Shown here: piece by piece, positions 30,308 through 39,010 of the stretch
Numbering within the stretch: position 1 is the first letter of the stretch
Layout: each line of letters opens with the position of its first letter
NCBI GenBank assembly: GCA_947494145.1
Contig: CANLTZ010000003.1
Location: 372,001-436,000, forward strand
Direction of reading: 5' to 3'
Length of the DNA: 64,000 nt
Source: an uncultured Jannaschia sp.
Lineage (GTDB): Bacteria > Pseudomonadota > Alphaproteobacteria > Rhodobacterales > Rhodobacteraceae
Made by a program: the position numbers and the translations under genes
Notes under the pieces: generated by a model
What the model saw: only the letters and a program-made list of their open reading frames with translations
Database searches by the model: none
Told to the model about the DNA's origin: nothing

Positions 30308-30478
30308 TGCTGCAGTGCCGAAACAATTACGCCGCAGGTTCCTTCTAACCCTCGGTTTTTCGGCGCCTCGCATCACAGGTGGGGGCACTTGCGTCACGGG
30401 CGCGTGACAAACGCCGCCAGGCGGTTGTCGCAGCATCGGAGCGTTGCCATTCTTGGGTCACGCACAAGGATCGACCCC

Positions 30479-31735
30479 ATGCCCACAGAACGCTTTACCT
30501 TCCCCGGCCACGATGGCTCCGAACTGGCTGCCCGGCTCGACATGCCCGACGGCGCGCCCGTCGCTACGGCGCTGATCGCGCATTGCTTCACATGCGGGAA
30601 GGACATCGCCGCATCCCGCCGTATTGCGGCGCGGCTGGCATCGCAGGGCGTTGCCGTTCTGCGCTTCGACTTCACCGGGCTGGGTCATTCACAGGGCGAG
30701 TTTGAGAATACCTCGTTCACCTCCAACGTGGCCGATCTGGTGGCCGCCTATCGCGCCTTGGCCGCCCGCGATCAGGCACCATCCCTTCTGATCGGCCATT
30801 CGCTGGGCGGCGCCGCCGTGTTGCGCGCCGCCCACGACATGCCCGAGGTAAAGGCCGTTGCGACCATCGGCGCGCCCTTCGATCCAGGCCATGTCACCCA
30901 CAATTTCGATGAGGCGTTGGAGCGTATCGCCCGTGATGGCGTGGGTGAAGTGATGCTGGGCGGGCGCCCCCTGAAGATCGGACAAGGCTTCGTCGATGAC
31001 GTGTCCGCCCAGAAGTTGGAGCCTGCCATCGCATCGCTCAACCGTGCGCTTCTGGTCCTGCATGCGCCTTTGGACGAGACCGTCGCGCTCGACAATGCGA
31101 CGCGCATCTTTCTGGCGGCCAAGCATCCGAAAAGCTTCGTGACGCTGGACGATGCCGACCATCTGGTGACCCGTGCCGAAGACGCGGAATATGCCGCCGA
31201 AGTCATCGTCGCCTGGGCCACGCGTTACTTGGACCTGCGCCGCCCTGCCCCGCCCATCGGCGCGCCAGAAGGCGTGACCCGCGTGTCAGAGGCGGATCCG
31301 AACGGCTTCGCACAGGACGTGGTGTCTGGCGGGGGCAAGCACCATATGACCGCCGACGAACCCGTGCCCTATGGCGGCACCGATCGCGGCCCCACGCCCT
31401 ATCAGCTTCTGGCCGCGGCCCTGGGCGCCTGCACCTCCATGACGCTGCGCATGTATGCGCGCCGCAAGCACCTGCCGCTGGATCATGTCAGCGTCGACGT
31501 CACCCATGACCGCATGCACGCGCAGGACGCGCCGTCTTCGGGCACGGAACGCATCGACCGCTTCCGCCGCGAGATCACGTTGAAGGGCGATCTGACCAAC
31601 GAACAACGTGCTCGCCTTCTGGAGATTGCGGATCGCTGCCCGGTTCATCGCACTTTGGAAACCGGGGCCGAGGTGGAAACGGTGCTTCTGGGGGCACCCG
31701 AACCCGCAGCCTTGCCGTTCGACGAATTGGTCTGA
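30479..31735 (+). CDS. bifunctional alpha/beta hydrolase - OsmC family protein
   Basis: A 418-residue fusion. Residues 1-255 form an alpha/beta hydrolase with nucleophile elbow GHSLGG and a C-terminal DADHLV that supplies the Asp/His. Residues 260-410 are an OsmC/Ohr-like domain with PYGGTDRGPTPYQLLAAALGACTSMTLRMYA and DRCPVHRTLE, giving the two redox cysteines of OsmC peroxidases. The pairing suggests removal of an acyl group coupled to hydroperoxide reduction, but the true substrate is unknown. The ATG at 30479 follows AAGGATCG; a longer start lacks similarity. Hairpin repeats follow the stop. Confidence 0.9.
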   Translation: MPTERFTFPGHDGSELAARLDMPDGAPVATALIAHCFTCGKDIAASRRIAARLASQGVAVLRFDFTGLGHSQGEFENTSFTSNVADLVAAYRALAARDQAPSLLIGHSLGGAAVLRAAHDMPEVKAVATIGAPFDPGHVTHNFDEALERIARDGVGEVMLGGRPLKIGQGFVDDVSAQKLEPAIASLNRALLVLHAPLDETVALDNATRIFLAAKHPKSFVTLDDADHLVTRAEDAEYAAEVIVAWATRYLDLRRPAPPIGAPEGVTRVSEADPNGFAQDVVSGGGKHHMTADEPVPYGGTDRGPTPYQLLAAALGACTSMTLRMYARRKHLPLDHVSVDVTHDRMHAQDAPSSGTERIDRFRREITLKGDLTNEQRARLLEIADRCPVHRTLETGAEVETVLLGAPEPAALPFDELV

Positions 31736-35552: not shown

Positions 35553-36422
35553 ATGACCGATTACCCCCATGTCGAAGGCTTCTTCGACCCAGGCACCAAC
35601 ACGATCAGCTACTTGGTCTCGGACGGGACAACCTGCGCCATCATCGACCCGGTGTTGGATTTCGACATGGCGGCGGGCCGCACCTCCACCGCGTCGGCCG
35701 ACCGCGTGATCGCAGCCATCCGCGACCGGGGCCTGGTGCTGGACTGGCTTCTGGAAACCCATGTCCATGCCGACCACCTGTCTGCGGCCCCCTACATCCA
35801 GGAGGCCTTGGGCGGACGCATCGGCATCGGCGCCGAGATTGTCACGGTGCAGGACACGTTCGGCAAGATCTTCAACGAAGGCACGCGTTTCCAACGCGAT
35901 GGCAGTCAATTCGATGCGCTGTTCCGCGAAGGCGACCGGTTTGAGATCGGCACCCTGCCTGTGCGGGTGCTGCACACGCCCGGCCACACGCCCGCCTGCC
36001 TAACCTACGTGGTGGGCGGTGAAAATCAGCGACTCAGCGCTTTCGTGGGTGACACGATGTTCATGCCCGATTTCGGCACGGCGCGTTGCGACTTTCCCGG
36101 CGGGTCGGCCGAGGCTTTGTGGGCGTCGATGCAGAAGATCCTCTCGCTACCCGATGACACGCGCATCTTCGTGGGCCACGACTACAAGGCCCCGGGTCGG
36201 GAAAACTTCGCCTGGGAAACCACTGTGGCCGCAGAAAAGCGCAACAAGCACTTGCTGGATGGGCGCGACGCCTTTCTGAAGATGCGCCAGGAACGGGACG
36301 CGACCTTGGGCGCGCCCAAGCTCATCCTGCCCTCGCTTCAGGTGAATATGCGCGGCGGGCGGATGCCTGAACCGGATGCACAGGGCAATGTCATGCTCAA
36401 GGTGCCGATCAACAAGATTTGA
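35553..36422 (+). CDS. persulfide dioxygenase-like MBL-fold protein (Blh/ETHE1 type)
   Basis: A 289-residue metallo-beta-lactamase-fold protein. The metal motif THVHADHLSAAPYI is at residues 69-82 (His70, His72, Asp74, His75), with HTPGHTPACLTY, GDTMFMPDFGTARCDFPGGSA and FVGHDY following; the last two are hallmarks of the ETHE1/Blh group, which oxidises glutathione persulfide to sulfite with a single iron. It heads a seven-gene operon with YeeE-type sulfur transporters and a sulfurtransferase, as in BigR-regulated sulfide-detoxification operons. No BigR gene is in the window. The ATG at 35553 was chosen because the longer frame overlaps prpE. Confidence 0.85.
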   Translation: MTDYPHVEGFFDPGTNTISYLVSDGTTCAIIDPVLDFDMAAGRTSTASADRVIAAIRDRGLVLDWLLETHVHADHLSAAPYIQEALGGRIGIGAEIVTVQDTFGKIFNEGTRFQRDGSQFDALFREGDRFEIGTLPVRVLHTPGHTPACLTYVVGGENQRLSAFVGDTMFMPDFGTARCDFPGGSAEALWASMQKILSLPDDTRIFVGHDYKAPGRENFAWETTVAAEKRNKHLLDGRDAFLKMRQERDATLGAPKLILPSLQVNMRGGRMPEPDAQGNVMLKVPINKI

Positions 36423-36446
36423 CCGCCCGCAGACAGGAGAAGGCAA

Positions 36447-36869
36447 GTGGAAGGTATCATCTGGGACGGCACCGCTATCCTTCGCGCGCTGATCGGTGGG
36501 CTGATGATCGGCGGGGCCGCGGCGCTTCTGCTGCTGGTCAATGGCCGCATCATGGGGGCGTCAGGCATTCTGGGCGGGCTGTTGGACGGCTCGGGCGACG
36601 CGCGCCGCGAACGGCTGGCCTTTCTGGCAGGATTGGTCGGGGCGCCGCTTCTGATCATTGCGGCCACGGGGCCCAACCCCACCAATATCGATGCGTCCTG
36701 GCCCACCCTTGTGATTGCCGGTCTGCTGGTGGGCATCGGCACGCGGCTGGGCGCGGGCTGCACGTCGGGCCATGGCATCTGCGGCCTGTCGCGTCTGTCA
36801 CCACGCGCGCTTGCGGCCACCGGCACTTTCATCGCCGCAGGTATCCTGACCGTGCGGGCCTTCGGATGA
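36447..36869 (+). CDS. YeeE/YedE family sulfur transporter, half 1
   Basis: A 140-residue inner-membrane protein with about four helices and the motif GAGCTSGHGICGLSR near residue 102, whose Cys is thought to take part in sulfur-species transfer in YeeE/YedE proteins. Its partner is the next gene; together they make one functional unit (called PmpA and PmpB in Xylella-type operons). Start at GTG 36447 after AGGAGAAGG. The neighbouring persulfide dioxygenase suggests import or export of thiosulfate- or persulfide-like sulfur. Confidence 0.85.
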   Translation: MEGIIWDGTAILRALIGGLMIGGAAALLLLVNGRIMGASGILGGLLDGSGDARRERLAFLAGLVGAPLLIIAATGPNPTNIDASWPTLVIAGLLVGIGTRLGAGCTSGHGICGLSRLSPRALAATGTFIAAGILTVRAFG

Positions 36870-37285
36870 GGCCCCTCATCGCTTGCCTGTCAGGCGCGCT
36901 TTTCGGGGCGGGGCTGCTGGTTTCCGGCATGACCGACACCGCCAAGGTGCGTGGCTTCCTGGCCCTGCTGGGCCCTGGCCCCTGGGACCCCACGCTGATC
37001 TTTGTGATGGTCAGCGGCATCCTTCCGATGTTTCTGGCTTGGGCGCGCAATGGACGCCAGACACCTGTCTATGCGGCGACCTGGCCTGAACGGGTCACCG
37101 GCATCGACGGCCCGCTCATGGCAGGGGCGGTTCTGTTCGGCCTGGGCTGGGGCCTTGTGGGCCTGTGCCCCGGACCGGCATTGGCGGCGTTCGCTTGGGG
37201 CGGGCCCGAGGTCTTGGTCTTTACGGCCTCCATGGCGGCGGGCATGGTCGCCCTGCCCCATATCCGCAAAGCGAGACCCGCCTGA
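36866..37285 (+). CDS. YeeE/YedE-like sulfur transporter, half 2 (DUF6691)
   Basis: A 139-residue membrane protein with four helices. LVSGMTDTAKVRGFLALLGPGPWDPTLIFVM and the C-terminal GLVGLCPGPALAAFAWG are the conserved signatures, with the Cys in the second one. It is the companion of the preceding gene, with its ATG overlapping that gene stop, and its own stop overlaps the start of the sulfurtransferase. Confidence 0.85.
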   Translation: MRPLIACLSGALFGAGLLVSGMTDTAKVRGFLALLGPGPWDPTLIFVMVSGILPMFLAWARNGRQTPVYAATWPERVTGIDGPLMAGAVLFGLGWGLVGLCPGPALAAFAWGGPEVLVFTASMAAGMVALPHIRKARPA

Positions 37286-37713
37286 TGGACCTGCGCCCCC
37301 TGGACCACACCACCTCCGTCGCACCCCAGCTTGAGCCCGAGGACATGGCCGCGCTGGCGCAAGACGGCGTCACCACCATCATCTGCAACCGCCCCGACGC
37401 AGAAATCCCGCCCAGCCATCAGGCGGCCGCCATGCAGGCGGCCGCCGAAGCCGCGGGAATGGCCTTCACCTTCAACCCCATCGCCATGCCCAATCTGACG
37501 ATGGATGCGGTCGAAGAACAGGCCGATGCCATTGCAGGCGCCGAAGGCCGCGTGGTGGCCTATTGCGCGTCTGGCACCCGCTCGGCGGTGCTGTGGGCAC
37601 TGTCCATGGCGGGCAAGATGCCGGCAGATGACATCCTCGCGTCGACGGCCCGGGCGGGCTATCAGCTTGGCGGGCTCAAATCCCAGATCGAAGCTCTGGA
37701 GGCACAGCAATGA
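37285..37713 (+). CDS. TIGR01244 family sulfurtransferase
   Basis: A 142-residue protein of the DUF442 / phosphatase-like rhodanese group. The catalytic loop is YCASGTRSA with Cys94; the N-terminus (VAPQLEPEDMAALAQDGVTTIICNRPD) is typical. In other bacteria this domain is fused to or beside Blh-type persulfide dioxygenases and moves sulfane sulfur between glutathione persulfide and thiosulfate. Here it is a separate gene whose stop overlaps the first hydratase gene by 4 bp, tying sulfur handling to the hydratase downstream. Confidence 0.85.
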   Translation: MDLRPLDHTTSVAPQLEPEDMAALAQDGVTTIICNRPDAEIPPSHQAAAMQAAAEAAGMAFTFNPIAMPNLTMDAVEEQADAIAGAEGRVVAYCASGTRSAVLWALSMAGKMPADDILASTARAGYQLGGLKSQIEALEAQQ

Positions 37714-38045
37714 CCGATGGCAGACGATGGCACGACATGGGGGGCGATGCCGCAGGCCCCGTCCCGGGGGATGAGCATGACTTCGCGCTCTGGGAAAAGC
37801 GGGTGGATGCGTTGATGATCCTGGCGTCTGGCGCGGGACATTTCACCGTCGATGGGCTGCGCCGCGCACTGGAAGACATGGGCGAAAAAGCCTTTGAGGA
37901 GATGACGTATTACGAGCGCTGGATCGCCTCCATCAATCAGAACCTGATCGAGGCAGGCATCTATTCCATCGAGGAATTGGGCGCCAAGATGGAGGAGGTC
38001 AGCGCCCGCGGCGACACCTATGGAGAGGCCGCCGATGCAAGCTGA
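37710..38045 (+). CDS. nitrile hydratase / thiocyanate hydrolase beta subunit, N-terminal half
   Basis: A 111-residue protein resembling the N-terminal domain of nitrile hydratase beta subunits and the separate beta subunit of thiocyanate hydrolase: WHDMGGDAAGPVP, a WEKRVDALM helix, and MTYYERWIASINQNLIEAGIYSIEELGAKM. Canonical NHase beta is about 210-230 residues in one chain; here the C-terminal half is the next gene, overlapping by 11 bp. A nitrile hydratase accessory protein is an alternative, since it shares this fold, but the HDMGG opening favours beta. Confidence 0.8.
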   Translation: MTDGRRWHDMGGDAAGPVPGDEHDFALWEKRVDALMILASGAGHFTVDGLRRALEDMGEKAFEEMTYYERWIASINQNLIEAGIYSIEELGAKMEEVSARGDTYGEAADAS

Positions 38046-38319
38046 TGCTGACTTCGCGCCTGGCGCCCGCGTCCGCGTCCGCGCCCTGATGCCGCCGGGC
38101 CATATCCGCACCCCCGCCTATCTGCGCGGCCATGTCGGTGAGGTGGAGCGCGTGCTTGGCCCCTTCGGCAACCCCGAAAAACTGGCCTACATGCTGCCCG
38201 CCGACAAGCAACGCCTTTACCGCGTGCGCTTTCGCCTAGCGGATCTCTGGCCCGACGCAGATGCCCCCACCGACACGATCGATGCCGAAATCTACGCCCA
38301 TTGGCTGGAGCCCGCCTGA
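38035..38319 (+). CDS. nitrile hydratase / thiocyanate hydrolase beta subunit, C-terminal half
   Basis: A 94-residue SH3-like barrel: FAPGARVRVRALMPPGHIRTPAYLRGHVGEVERVLGPFGNPE, then YRVRFRLADLWPDADAPTDTIDAEIYAHWLEPA. This matches the C-terminal domain of NHase beta, or the alpha subunit of thiocyanate hydrolase. The ATG at 38035 has GGAGAGG upstream; an alternative ATG at 38020 would add five residues. The stop overlaps the start of the metal subunit gene. Confidence 0.82.
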   Translation: MQADADFAPGARVRVRALMPPGHIRTPAYLRGHVGEVERVLGPFGNPEKLAYMLPADKQRLYRVRFRLADLWPDADAPTDTIDAEIYAHWLEPA

Positions 38320-38972
38320 TGCCCCATGATCACCACGACCATTCCCACGAAGGCATGTCGCCTTCCGGCCATCCCTACCGCGCCGACCAGGACGGCCCAC
38401 TGAGCTATTGGCAGAATATGGAAATTGCCGTGCGCGAATTGCTCATCGAGAAGGGCGTGGTCACACCCGAACAGGTGGCCGCCCAAATCGAGGCCATGGA
38501 TGCCCGCACACCCGCCAACGGTGCCGCCGTCGTGGCCCGCGCCTGGACCGACCCCGCCTTCCGCGCGCGGCTGTTGGAAGACGGATCGGCCGCCAGCCGC
38601 GAAATGGGCTTCGATGTGGGGCCCATGAAGCTGATCGCCGTGGAAAACACCGAGGACGTCCATAACGTGATCGTCTGCACGCTGTGTTCCTGCTACCCGC
38701 GCAACCTGCTGGGCCTGCCGCCTGATTGGTACAAATCCCGCGCTTACCGCAGCCGCACCGTGCGGGAGCCGCGCAAGGTGCTGTCGGAATTCGGCCTGGA
38801 CCTGCCCGACGACGTCACTGTCCGCGTCCACGACTCGACCGCAGACATGCGCTACATCGTCGTGCCCGCGCGCCCGGAAGGCACCGAAGGCATGGACGAA
38901 GCCACATTGGCGACGCTTGTCACACGTGACAGCATGATTGGCACGGGTGTCGCCCGGCTGCCCAATTCTTAA
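38319..38972 (+). CDS. cobalt-type nitrile hydratase alpha / thiocyanate hydrolase gamma subunit
   Basis: A 217-residue catalytic subunit. The metal site VCTLCSCYPR has Cys120, Cys123 and Cys125; Thr after the first Cys marks the cobalt class (iron enzymes usually have Ser). The N-terminus is His-rich (MPHDHHDHSHEGM). LSYWQNMEIAVRELLIEKGVVTPEQV and VRVHDSTADMRYIVVPARP are typical of the family. With beta split into two genes, the complex has three subunits like thiocyanate hydrolase or the ToyJKL nitrile hydratase. The sulfur genes just upstream favour thiocyanate or carbonyl sulfide chemistry, but a nitrile substrate is not excluded. Confidence 0.87.
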   Translation: MPHDHHDHSHEGMSPSGHPYRADQDGPLSYWQNMEIAVRELLIEKGVVTPEQVAAQIEAMDARTPANGAAVVARAWTDPAFRARLLEDGSAASREMGFDVGPMKLIAVENTEDVHNVIVCTLCSCYPRNLLGLPPDWYKSRAYRSRTVREPRKVLSEFGLDLPDDVTVRVHDSTADMRYIVVPARPEGTEGMDEATLATLVTRDSMIGTGVARLPNS

Positions 38973-39010
38973 CTTAAGAATTGGGTGGAAAGTCTTAAGT
39001 TAAGACTTTC
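38961..39010. repeat. pair of perfect palindromes with core CTTAA-S-TTAAG
   Basis: Positions 38961-38985 form a 12-bp perfect inverted repeat with one central base (CTTAA-C-TTAAG core), and 38988-39010 an 11-bp one with the core CTTAA-G-TTAAG. The flanking bases differ, each being self-complementary, so the two hairpins were conserved or formed independently. The first includes the stop codon of the hydratase gene; the second ends 7 bp before the end of the convergent permease gene. Possible roles are paired terminators or binding sites. Confidence 0.7.

Follow-up and report, generated by a model that had tools for sequence, protein, structure and literature searches.

A probable activator-independent three-subunit cobalt hydratase joined to a sulfide-oxidation operon in an uncultured Jannaschia sp.

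Results and discussion

The window analyzed in this study is a stretch of 64,000 nucleotides from an uncultured Jannaschia sp. of the Rhodobacteraceae (assembly GCA_947494145.1, 4.9 Mb; contig CANLTZ010000003.1, positions 372,001 to 436,000), in which seven open reading frames (ORFs), all on the + strand, occupy positions 35553-38972. The system consists of an ordinary sulfide-oxidation operon (genes 1-4) followed by an activator-free three-subunit cobalt hydratase (genes 5-7), and we assign a probability of about 0.6 to the reading of genes 5-7 as a three-subunit cobalt hydratase that needs no activator, with the sulfur operon joined upstream. This reading is based on the protein families, the split of the beta subunit, the pattern of pocket residues, the activator gene that was searched for and not found, a separate clade in the trees and the recurrent joining of the two modules. 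A sequence-only reading of the same DNA had proposed a module for thiocyanate or carbonyl sulfide (COS), with a three-subunit nitrile hydratase as the alternative; the seven genes were confirmed by the ORF calls at its coordinates, on the + strand.

Subunits of the hydratase

Gene 5 (37710..38045, +) encodes the N-terminal half of a nitrile hydratase beta subunit (beta-N; AnhD-like and thiocyanate hydrolase beta-like; NHase_beta_N, PF21006, 66.3 bits) with Leu50, Arg51, Glu55 and the motif YYERW. The C-terminal half (AnhE-like and thiocyanate hydrolase alpha-like; NHase_beta_C, PF02211, 82.5 bits) is encoded by gene 6 (38020..38319, +) and carries His28 and Arg30 when numbered from an ATG start at 38020; the ATG at 38035 is a possible later start. 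Gene 7 (38319..38972, +) encodes the cobalt (metal) subunit (NHase_alpha, 275.6; TIGR01323, 267 bits) with a His-rich N-terminus and the motif CTLCSCYPR (Arg128), i.e. the metal site reads CTLCSC as in the sequence-only reading. By these family assignments genes 5-7 are predicted to form a three-subunit cobalt hydratase.

The direct overlaps described earlier hold for the junctions of genes 2 to 7, where 2/3, 3/4, 4/5, 5/6 and 6/7 share 4, 1, 4, 26 and 1 bases, respectively (11 instead of 26 if gene 6 starts at 38035), but not for genes 1 and 2: the stop of gene 1 and the start of gene 2 are separated by a gap of 24 bases containing AGGAGAAGG.

Distribution and gene order

For the family sample, 394 Rhodobacteraceae genomes were searched with the metal subunit. 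A match was obtained in 201 genomes, 60 of which (the window's included) scored at least 285 bits, the next best score being 248. Eighty loci were fetched (L032-L111): 59 with a metal subunit of at least 285 bits, called the close clade (L032-L090), the distant split enzymes L091, L092, L101 and L107, and 17 classical nitrile hydratases. A second group of 35 loci (L112-L146) includes some genomes already sampled as well as the window itself. The species-scan set was obtained by aligning the beta-N half to one genome per species; the best 80 (L148-L227; beta-N match of 72% or more, n=80) of 423 related stretches were kept, and the set therefore leans to near relatives. Its named members belong to genera of Rhodobacteraceae type, among them Jannaschia, Litoreibacter, Roseovarius, Yoonia and Thalassobacter. 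Because the same DNA occurs in 21 of 79 species-scan loci and in family-sample loci, counts from the two sets cannot be added as independent, and the 139 close-clade alignment rows correspond to about 118 distinct loci.

N-half, C-half and metal subunit follow each other in this order and in separate frames at all 59 close-clade loci, and the same order is found in the four distant split enzymes, while the metal subunit comes first in 17/17 classical family loci. The beta subunit lies in one frame in 36/38 classical loci. At L095 the beta halves are in two frames and the beta subunit looks frame-broken. L121 is Trp-type at the pocket position discussed below, with the metal subunit first and the beta halves in two overlapping frames, which reflects either an independent second split or an error in the sequence. 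Genome G171 carries both a divergent split enzyme (L107) and a close-clade enzyme (L048).

An ordinary two-subunit cobalt nitrile hydratase with a recently broken beta gene would account for a metal subunit that exceeds the cut-off of the nitrile hydratase alpha model TIGR01323 (267 against 249.85 bits) and has nitrile hydratases as its nearest solved structures. Since the split is conserved in 59/59 fetched close relatives, such a recent break was ruled out; the residue pattern, the absence of an activator and the trees also differ from those of classical enzymes, and we regard this explanation as most improbable. TIGR01323 does not separate the groups, because the split enzymes L142, L143 and L146 pass it too.

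Distant split enzymes were found on plasmids of Planktothrix, Streptomyces, Polymorphobacter and Rhizobium. Genes for cobalt/nickel transporters adjoin them on the Streptomyces, Polymorphobacter and Rhizobium plasmids (L143, L144 and L146), and an aquaporin gene also does so on those of Streptomyces and Rhizobium (L143, L146). On the Planktothrix plasmid (L142) the split hydratase adjoins genes for asparagine synthase, a TauD-like dioxygenase, NADAR and glutathione transferase, a neighbourhood that is perhaps a biosynthetic cluster. The metal subunit matched 179 plasmid records, eight at 60-80% identity and none higher (the best-ranked 56.7% over 99%), and the beta-N half matched 36, all below 60% identity. 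Among these records no close-clade copy was seen, as plasmid beta-N halves remain below 60% compared with at least 72% in the species-scan relatives.

The gene directly after the metal subunit in the species-scan loci encodes a lipid A-type acyltransferase (43/78) or an EamA permease (25/78), often with a 4-base overlap at the junction, and a FliG-like gene is common upstream of the hydratase (39/79); these three names were derived from one representative each.

Profile scores and pocket residues

Thiocyanate hydrolase did not score above the cut-off in any of 398 genomes drawn from the phylum, so the references were taken from Thiobacillus thioparus (PDB 2dd4) and from a plasmid of Roseomonas marmotae (L145). 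The latter locus encodes a fused beta-alpha chain together with CbtAB and a TauE/SafE gene, and a small unannotated ORF just downstream is weakly similar to beta-N (21 bits) with no Pfam or NCBIfam match. The Roseomonas enzyme passes the thiocyanate hydrolase gamma model TIGR03887 (ScnC, 359.2 bits, positive control) with its beta halves fused; the split beta subunit, taken in the sequence-only reading as a sign of thiocyanate hydrolase, is thus not diagnostic of it. The window's metal subunit reaches 205.7 bits with TIGR03887, below the cut-off of 291.45.

The residue following CTLCSCYP is Arg in 62/63 split family loci and Trp or Phe in 17/17 classical ones; among the 35 further loci it is Arg in 14 split, rearranged or thiocyanate hydrolase loci and Trp, Phe or His in 21 classical loci, so that all classical rows together show 33 W, 3 F and 2 H (n=38). 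Arg was also found in 79/79 metal subunits of the species-scan set and in 138/138 close-clade subunits, the sets overlapping. The sole split family locus with Trp is L091, possibly a natural intermediate. The divergent split enzymes L092, L101, L107 and L131 combine CYPR with altered beta-N motifs.

Arg128 of the window enzyme aligns with gamma-Arg136 of thiocyanate hydrolase, which, together with beta-Arg90, we take to be a pocket residue governing selectivity for thiocyanate. The beta-Arg90 position is Leu in 139/139 close-clade rows (Leu50 in the window), Lys in the split enzymes L143, L144 and L146, and Arg in both thiocyanate hydrolases. With the beta subunit of Pseudomonas putida nitrile hydratase as the alignment reference, the positions of Arg52 and Arg149 are Arg in every row counted, and those of Glu56 and His147 are Glu and His in 139/139 close-clade rows and 12/12 other split rows, Glu55 and His28 of the window being the aligned residues; the thiocyanate hydrolases have Asn and Tyr (T. 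thioparus) or Ala and Tyr (Roseomonas) instead. According to the parts of PMC8278588 from which the numbering is taken, both Glu56 and His147 are important for the activity of nitrile hydratase.

Phylogeny

The metal-subunit tree (60 rows) includes 37 loci of the group L032-L111 (n=80) and 19 of the group L112-L146 (n=35), and the three-part tree (58 rows) left out two nitrile hydratases of the PDB whose beta chains were not available in full; both hydratase trees are read as unrooted. In the metal-subunit tree all 20 classical rows fall into a single clade (100/99) with the window outside. In the three-part tree a single clade (100/99) again unites the classical rows (18 here), with the 38 split rows and both thiocyanate hydrolases on the other side. 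The window belongs to a clade of 26 rows (100/98, starred) without thiocyanate hydrolases, which sit on a long branch of their own (100/100) beside L143, L144 and L146 (81/83, not starred). The refuting result named in the sequence-only reading, a metal subunit grouping firmly with classical nitrile hydratases, thus did not occur; the subunit lies on the same side as thiocyanate hydrolase.

The separate classical clade and the branch held by the thiocyanate hydrolases indicate that the window enzyme is neither one nor the other. Judged by its split beta subunit, the missing activator gene, Arg in place of Trp and the trees, it is not a classical nitrile hydratase; judged by the TIGR03887 score, Leu at the beta-Arg90 position and the retained Glu56 and His147, it appears on this evidence not to be a thiocyanate hydrolase proper. 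Of the earlier thiocyanate proposal, the Arg at the CYPR site and the side of the tree stood, while the TIGR03887 score, the lack of beta-Arg90, the retained Glu and His and the majority of relatives, which have no sulfur genes beside the enzyme, did not bear it out; the alternative of a three-subunit nitrile hydratase fits better than thiocyanate hydrolase.

Maturation and the closest described enzymes

No activator gene was found in the window's assembly, where the best match of the activator model TIGR03889 (16.1 bits against a cut-off of 46) lies inside the beta-N gene itself. TIGR03889 scored above the cut-off in 2/60 close-clade genomes (G267 and G278, both carrying a second metal-subunit match) versus 16/16 genomes with a classical enzyme. 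G233 and G660, which have the split enzyme only among the matches listed, show no match above the cut-off; G409 and G527, each carrying two metal-subunit matches, show one such match per genome.

The closest described enzyme is AnhD-AnhE-AnhA (AnhDEA) of Streptomyces canus, likened to the window enzyme by the order N-half, C-half, metal subunit and by the absence of an activator gene, as described in parts of PMC7329996. The same parts report that this three-subunit enzyme works without an activator, that its beta-N half AnhD acts as a metal and subunit-swapping chaperone, and that it hydrates acetamiprid, thiacloprid and 'BN' but not indole-3-acetonitrile; the toyocamycin nitrile hydratase (ToyJ and partners) is also given there as a three-subunit enzyme. 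Glu and His in the beta halves are a further likeness, AnhD-Glu56 and AnhE-His21 being named in passages of PMC13243292. Unlike AnhDEA, the window system has a sulfur operon upstream. As AnhD acts in this way in S. canus, the beta-N half of the window enzyme probably doubles as a metal and subunit-swapping chaperone.

The chains of T. thioparus thiocyanate hydrolase (PDB 2dd4) likewise correspond to beta-N, beta-C and metal subunit, and CTLCSCYPR, a His-rich N-terminus and the Arg in YYxRW are common to both enzymes; the window enzyme differs in having Leu, Glu and His where Arg90, Asn and Tyr are found there, in its place off the separate long branch and in its score below the TIGR03887 cut-off. 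The T. thioparus gene cluster runs alpha, beta, gamma, activator according to passages of a review (PMC7193024), whereas in the window the order starts with the beta-like half, and the search for an activator was negative. With classical cobalt nitrile hydratases the window enzyme has in common the families, the cobalt motif and the equivalents of beta Arg52, Glu56, His147 and Arg149; these enzymes differ from it in the one-frame beta subunit (36/38), CYPW/F/H (38/38), the activator (16/16) and their own clade.

The sulfur operon and its link to the hydratase

Gene 1 (35553..36422, +) encodes a persulfide (sulfur) dioxygenase of the ETHE1/Blh type (PF00753; NF040641, 366.9 bits) that aligns to positions 141-422 of NF040641, the dioxygenase part of Blh, and stays below a cut-off of 625 set for the fused protein. 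Genes 2 (36447..36869, +; GTG start) and 3 (36866..37285, +) encode two halves of a YeeE/YedE-type membrane protein, the first with 23.8 bits for PF04143 (below the cut-off of 27) and the second (DUF6691) with 105.6 bits for PF20398. Gene 4 (37285..37713, +) encodes a rhodanese-like sulfurtransferase of the DUF442/BLH-phosphatase fold (TIGR01244, 130.3 bits, cut-off 85.85; PF04273) with the loop CASGTRS. Sulfur dioxygenase and DUF442 sulfurtransferase are likewise present in the Blh/BigR-type sulfide oxidation operon described in parts of PMC5823870, from which the window differs by encoding the two as separate proteins and by the YeeE-type halves; dioxygenase, DUF442 protein and sulfur-compound transporter, by which Blh-type operons are recognized, are all found in genes 1-4, the first transporter half weakly. 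There is no regulator among the seven genes, the only ones searched for it. Genes 1-4 are thus an ordinary sulfide-detoxification operon that also occurs alone in relatives.

A direct search found the sulfurtransferase immediately upstream of beta-N in 22/80 species-scan loci (17/79 with a cruder gene caller). Six of the 22 have the dioxygenase and both YeeE halves, 13 the sulfurtransferase alone, and three a YeeE match (both halves, or the single half that the contig includes) with no dioxygenase match. Conservation of the seven-gene order, a check proposed earlier, thus holds in 6/80 loci: the arrangement is a minority one in the clade, and its recurrence argues for more than chance. In the family sample the sulfurtransferase lies upstream in 5/59 close-clade loci, four of them the same DNA as species-scan loci.

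In the hydratase tree, made with a quick method and one support value, the linked loci occupy three positions (three changes, two of them forced by starred branches); L189 was left out as its contig holds no metal subunit, and L172, L200 and L221, with short upstream sequence, were not counted. In the sulfurtransferase tree, where L083 and L201 are long branches, the linked Litoreibacter-type and Jannaschia-type copies belong to different supported clades (four changes, two forced). Taken together, both trees speak for two or three separate events that joined the hydratase and sulfur modules rather than for the alternative of one gain followed by losses, and the link may therefore be functional.

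Neutral joining, i.e. two unrelated modules on one transcript with a hydratase not tied to sulfur, is quite possible, although the odds are against it. It would fit the wide occurrence of sulfurtransferase homologues, which are present in 50/60 genomes with the enzyme (six at the hydratase locus) and in 18 of 20 comparison genomes without the close-clade enzyme; of these 20, five have another metal-subunit homologue. The four-gene operon also occurs alone and in the same order in 8/20 fetched sulfurtransferase loci (taken from the best-scoring rows of the sulfurtransferase genome search), and contigs 14 and 16 of the window's genome carry a second dioxygenase-sulfurtransferase pair and a third dioxygenase, respectively. 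Less easily reconciled with it are the joining of the same partner in separate lineages with sulfurtransferases of different clades, the overlaps of 4, 1 and 4 bases between genes 2 and 5 and the lack of any sulfurtransferase match at the 17 classical family loci searched.

A module for cyanide and thiocyanate, in which the DUF442 protein makes thiocyanate from cyanide and sulfane sulfur, the hydratase converts it (via thiocarbamate) to COS and ammonia and the dioxygenase oxidizes COS-derived sulfide, is in our view unlikely. In its favour, parts of PMC5823870 report that thiosulfate and cyanide are converted in vitro to thiocyanate and sulfite by the DUF442 domain of Xylella Blh, 13 of the 22 linked loci have the sulfurtransferase with no adjacent dioxygenase or YeeE match, and two or three origins of the joining are probable. 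The position of thiocyanate hydrolase on the same side of the tree, the Arg common to both at the CYPR site and the thiocyanate hydrolase gamma chain PDB 3vyg_C, which has Trp at the Arg136 site, can also be counted for it. It is opposed by the TIGR03887 score, Leu at the beta-Arg90 position, the retained Glu and His, the separation of the window clade from both thiocyanate hydrolases and the 58/80 species-scan loci with no adjacent sulfurtransferase match. The pocket residues and the unlinked majority of relatives speak against cyanide or thiocyanate as the general role of the clade; such a role is kept in play by the repeated joining together with thiocyanate synthesis by DUF442 proteins. 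A cyanate route was dropped, as the assembly contains no cyanase match.

Among titles and abstract openings of open-licence literature we found no description of a persulfide dioxygenase operon with a hydratase attached to it. Members of the clade may already be included in a tree covering both nitrile hydratases and thiocyanate hydrolases that is presented in parts of PMC10098168.

Proposed function

For the activator-independent cobalt hydratase that we prefer, the chemistry, the chaperone role, the polarity of the pocket and co-expression would be as follows. The CTLCSC claw of the metal subunit would bind Co(III), and the pocket would be closed by both beta halves, which would also contribute the conserved Arg, Glu and His; a cyano group would bind to the cobalt and be hydrated to an amide-level product. 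The beta-N half would probably also act on metal and subunit exchange as AnhD does. Arg128 in place of the Trp of nitrile hydratases would render the pocket more polar, which would favour small cyano compounds of a polar or heteroatom-bound kind over large aromatic nitriles as natural substrates. With genes 1-4 joined upstream, the sulfide/persulfide-oxidation operon and the hydratase are probably expressed together.

Several observations weigh against this reading. Most of the clade lacks the sulfur genes (no adjacent sulfurtransferase match in 58/80 species-scan loci, a few of which have a contig end close upstream), and the acyltransferase and EamA neighbours of most clade members give no hint of a substrate. 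Splitting and Arg are not perfectly tied, as L091 is split with Trp and L121 combines Trp with a two-frame beta subunit, and the metal-subunit tree places the Arg-bearing L092, L101, L107 and L131 beside the classical clade with weak support (55/56, 91/56). The chaperone role and the substrate rest on analogy, and the kinship with the S. canus enzyme on gene order, the missing activator and the Streptomyces plasmid homologue L143 as a proxy.

Surroundings in the window

The system is flanked on the other strand by an acyl-CoA synthetase gene of the propionate-CoA ligase type upstream (model score below the cut-off) and an oligopeptide-type ABC transporter permease gene downstream. An inverted repeat, CTTAACTTAAGA / TCTTAAGTTAAG, at 38968-39004 covers the stop of the metal subunit between the convergent genes and may be a two-way terminator. 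Elsewhere in the window (30470-31735) an alpha/beta hydrolase is fused to an OsmC-like domain that scores 58.5 bits with a model for OsmC-related selenoproteins (cut-off 95).

Implications

Annotation models call the close-clade enzyme a nitrile hydratase and cannot separate it from the classical enzyme, although the two are distinct in subunit composition, in the pocket residue and in how they mature. Splitting, the pocket Arg and the absence of an activator go together with few exceptions. A distinctly unlikely but specific possibility is a two-step disposal of cyanide, in which the DUF442 protein would make thiocyanate, the activator-free hydratase, with one of the two pocket Arg residues, would destroy it and the dioxygenase would oxidize the released sulfide; if true, this coupling would explain why the two modules are recurrently joined in Rhodobacteraceae. 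Cyanide and thiocyanate are the first candidate substrates suggested by the repeated association with sulfur genes.

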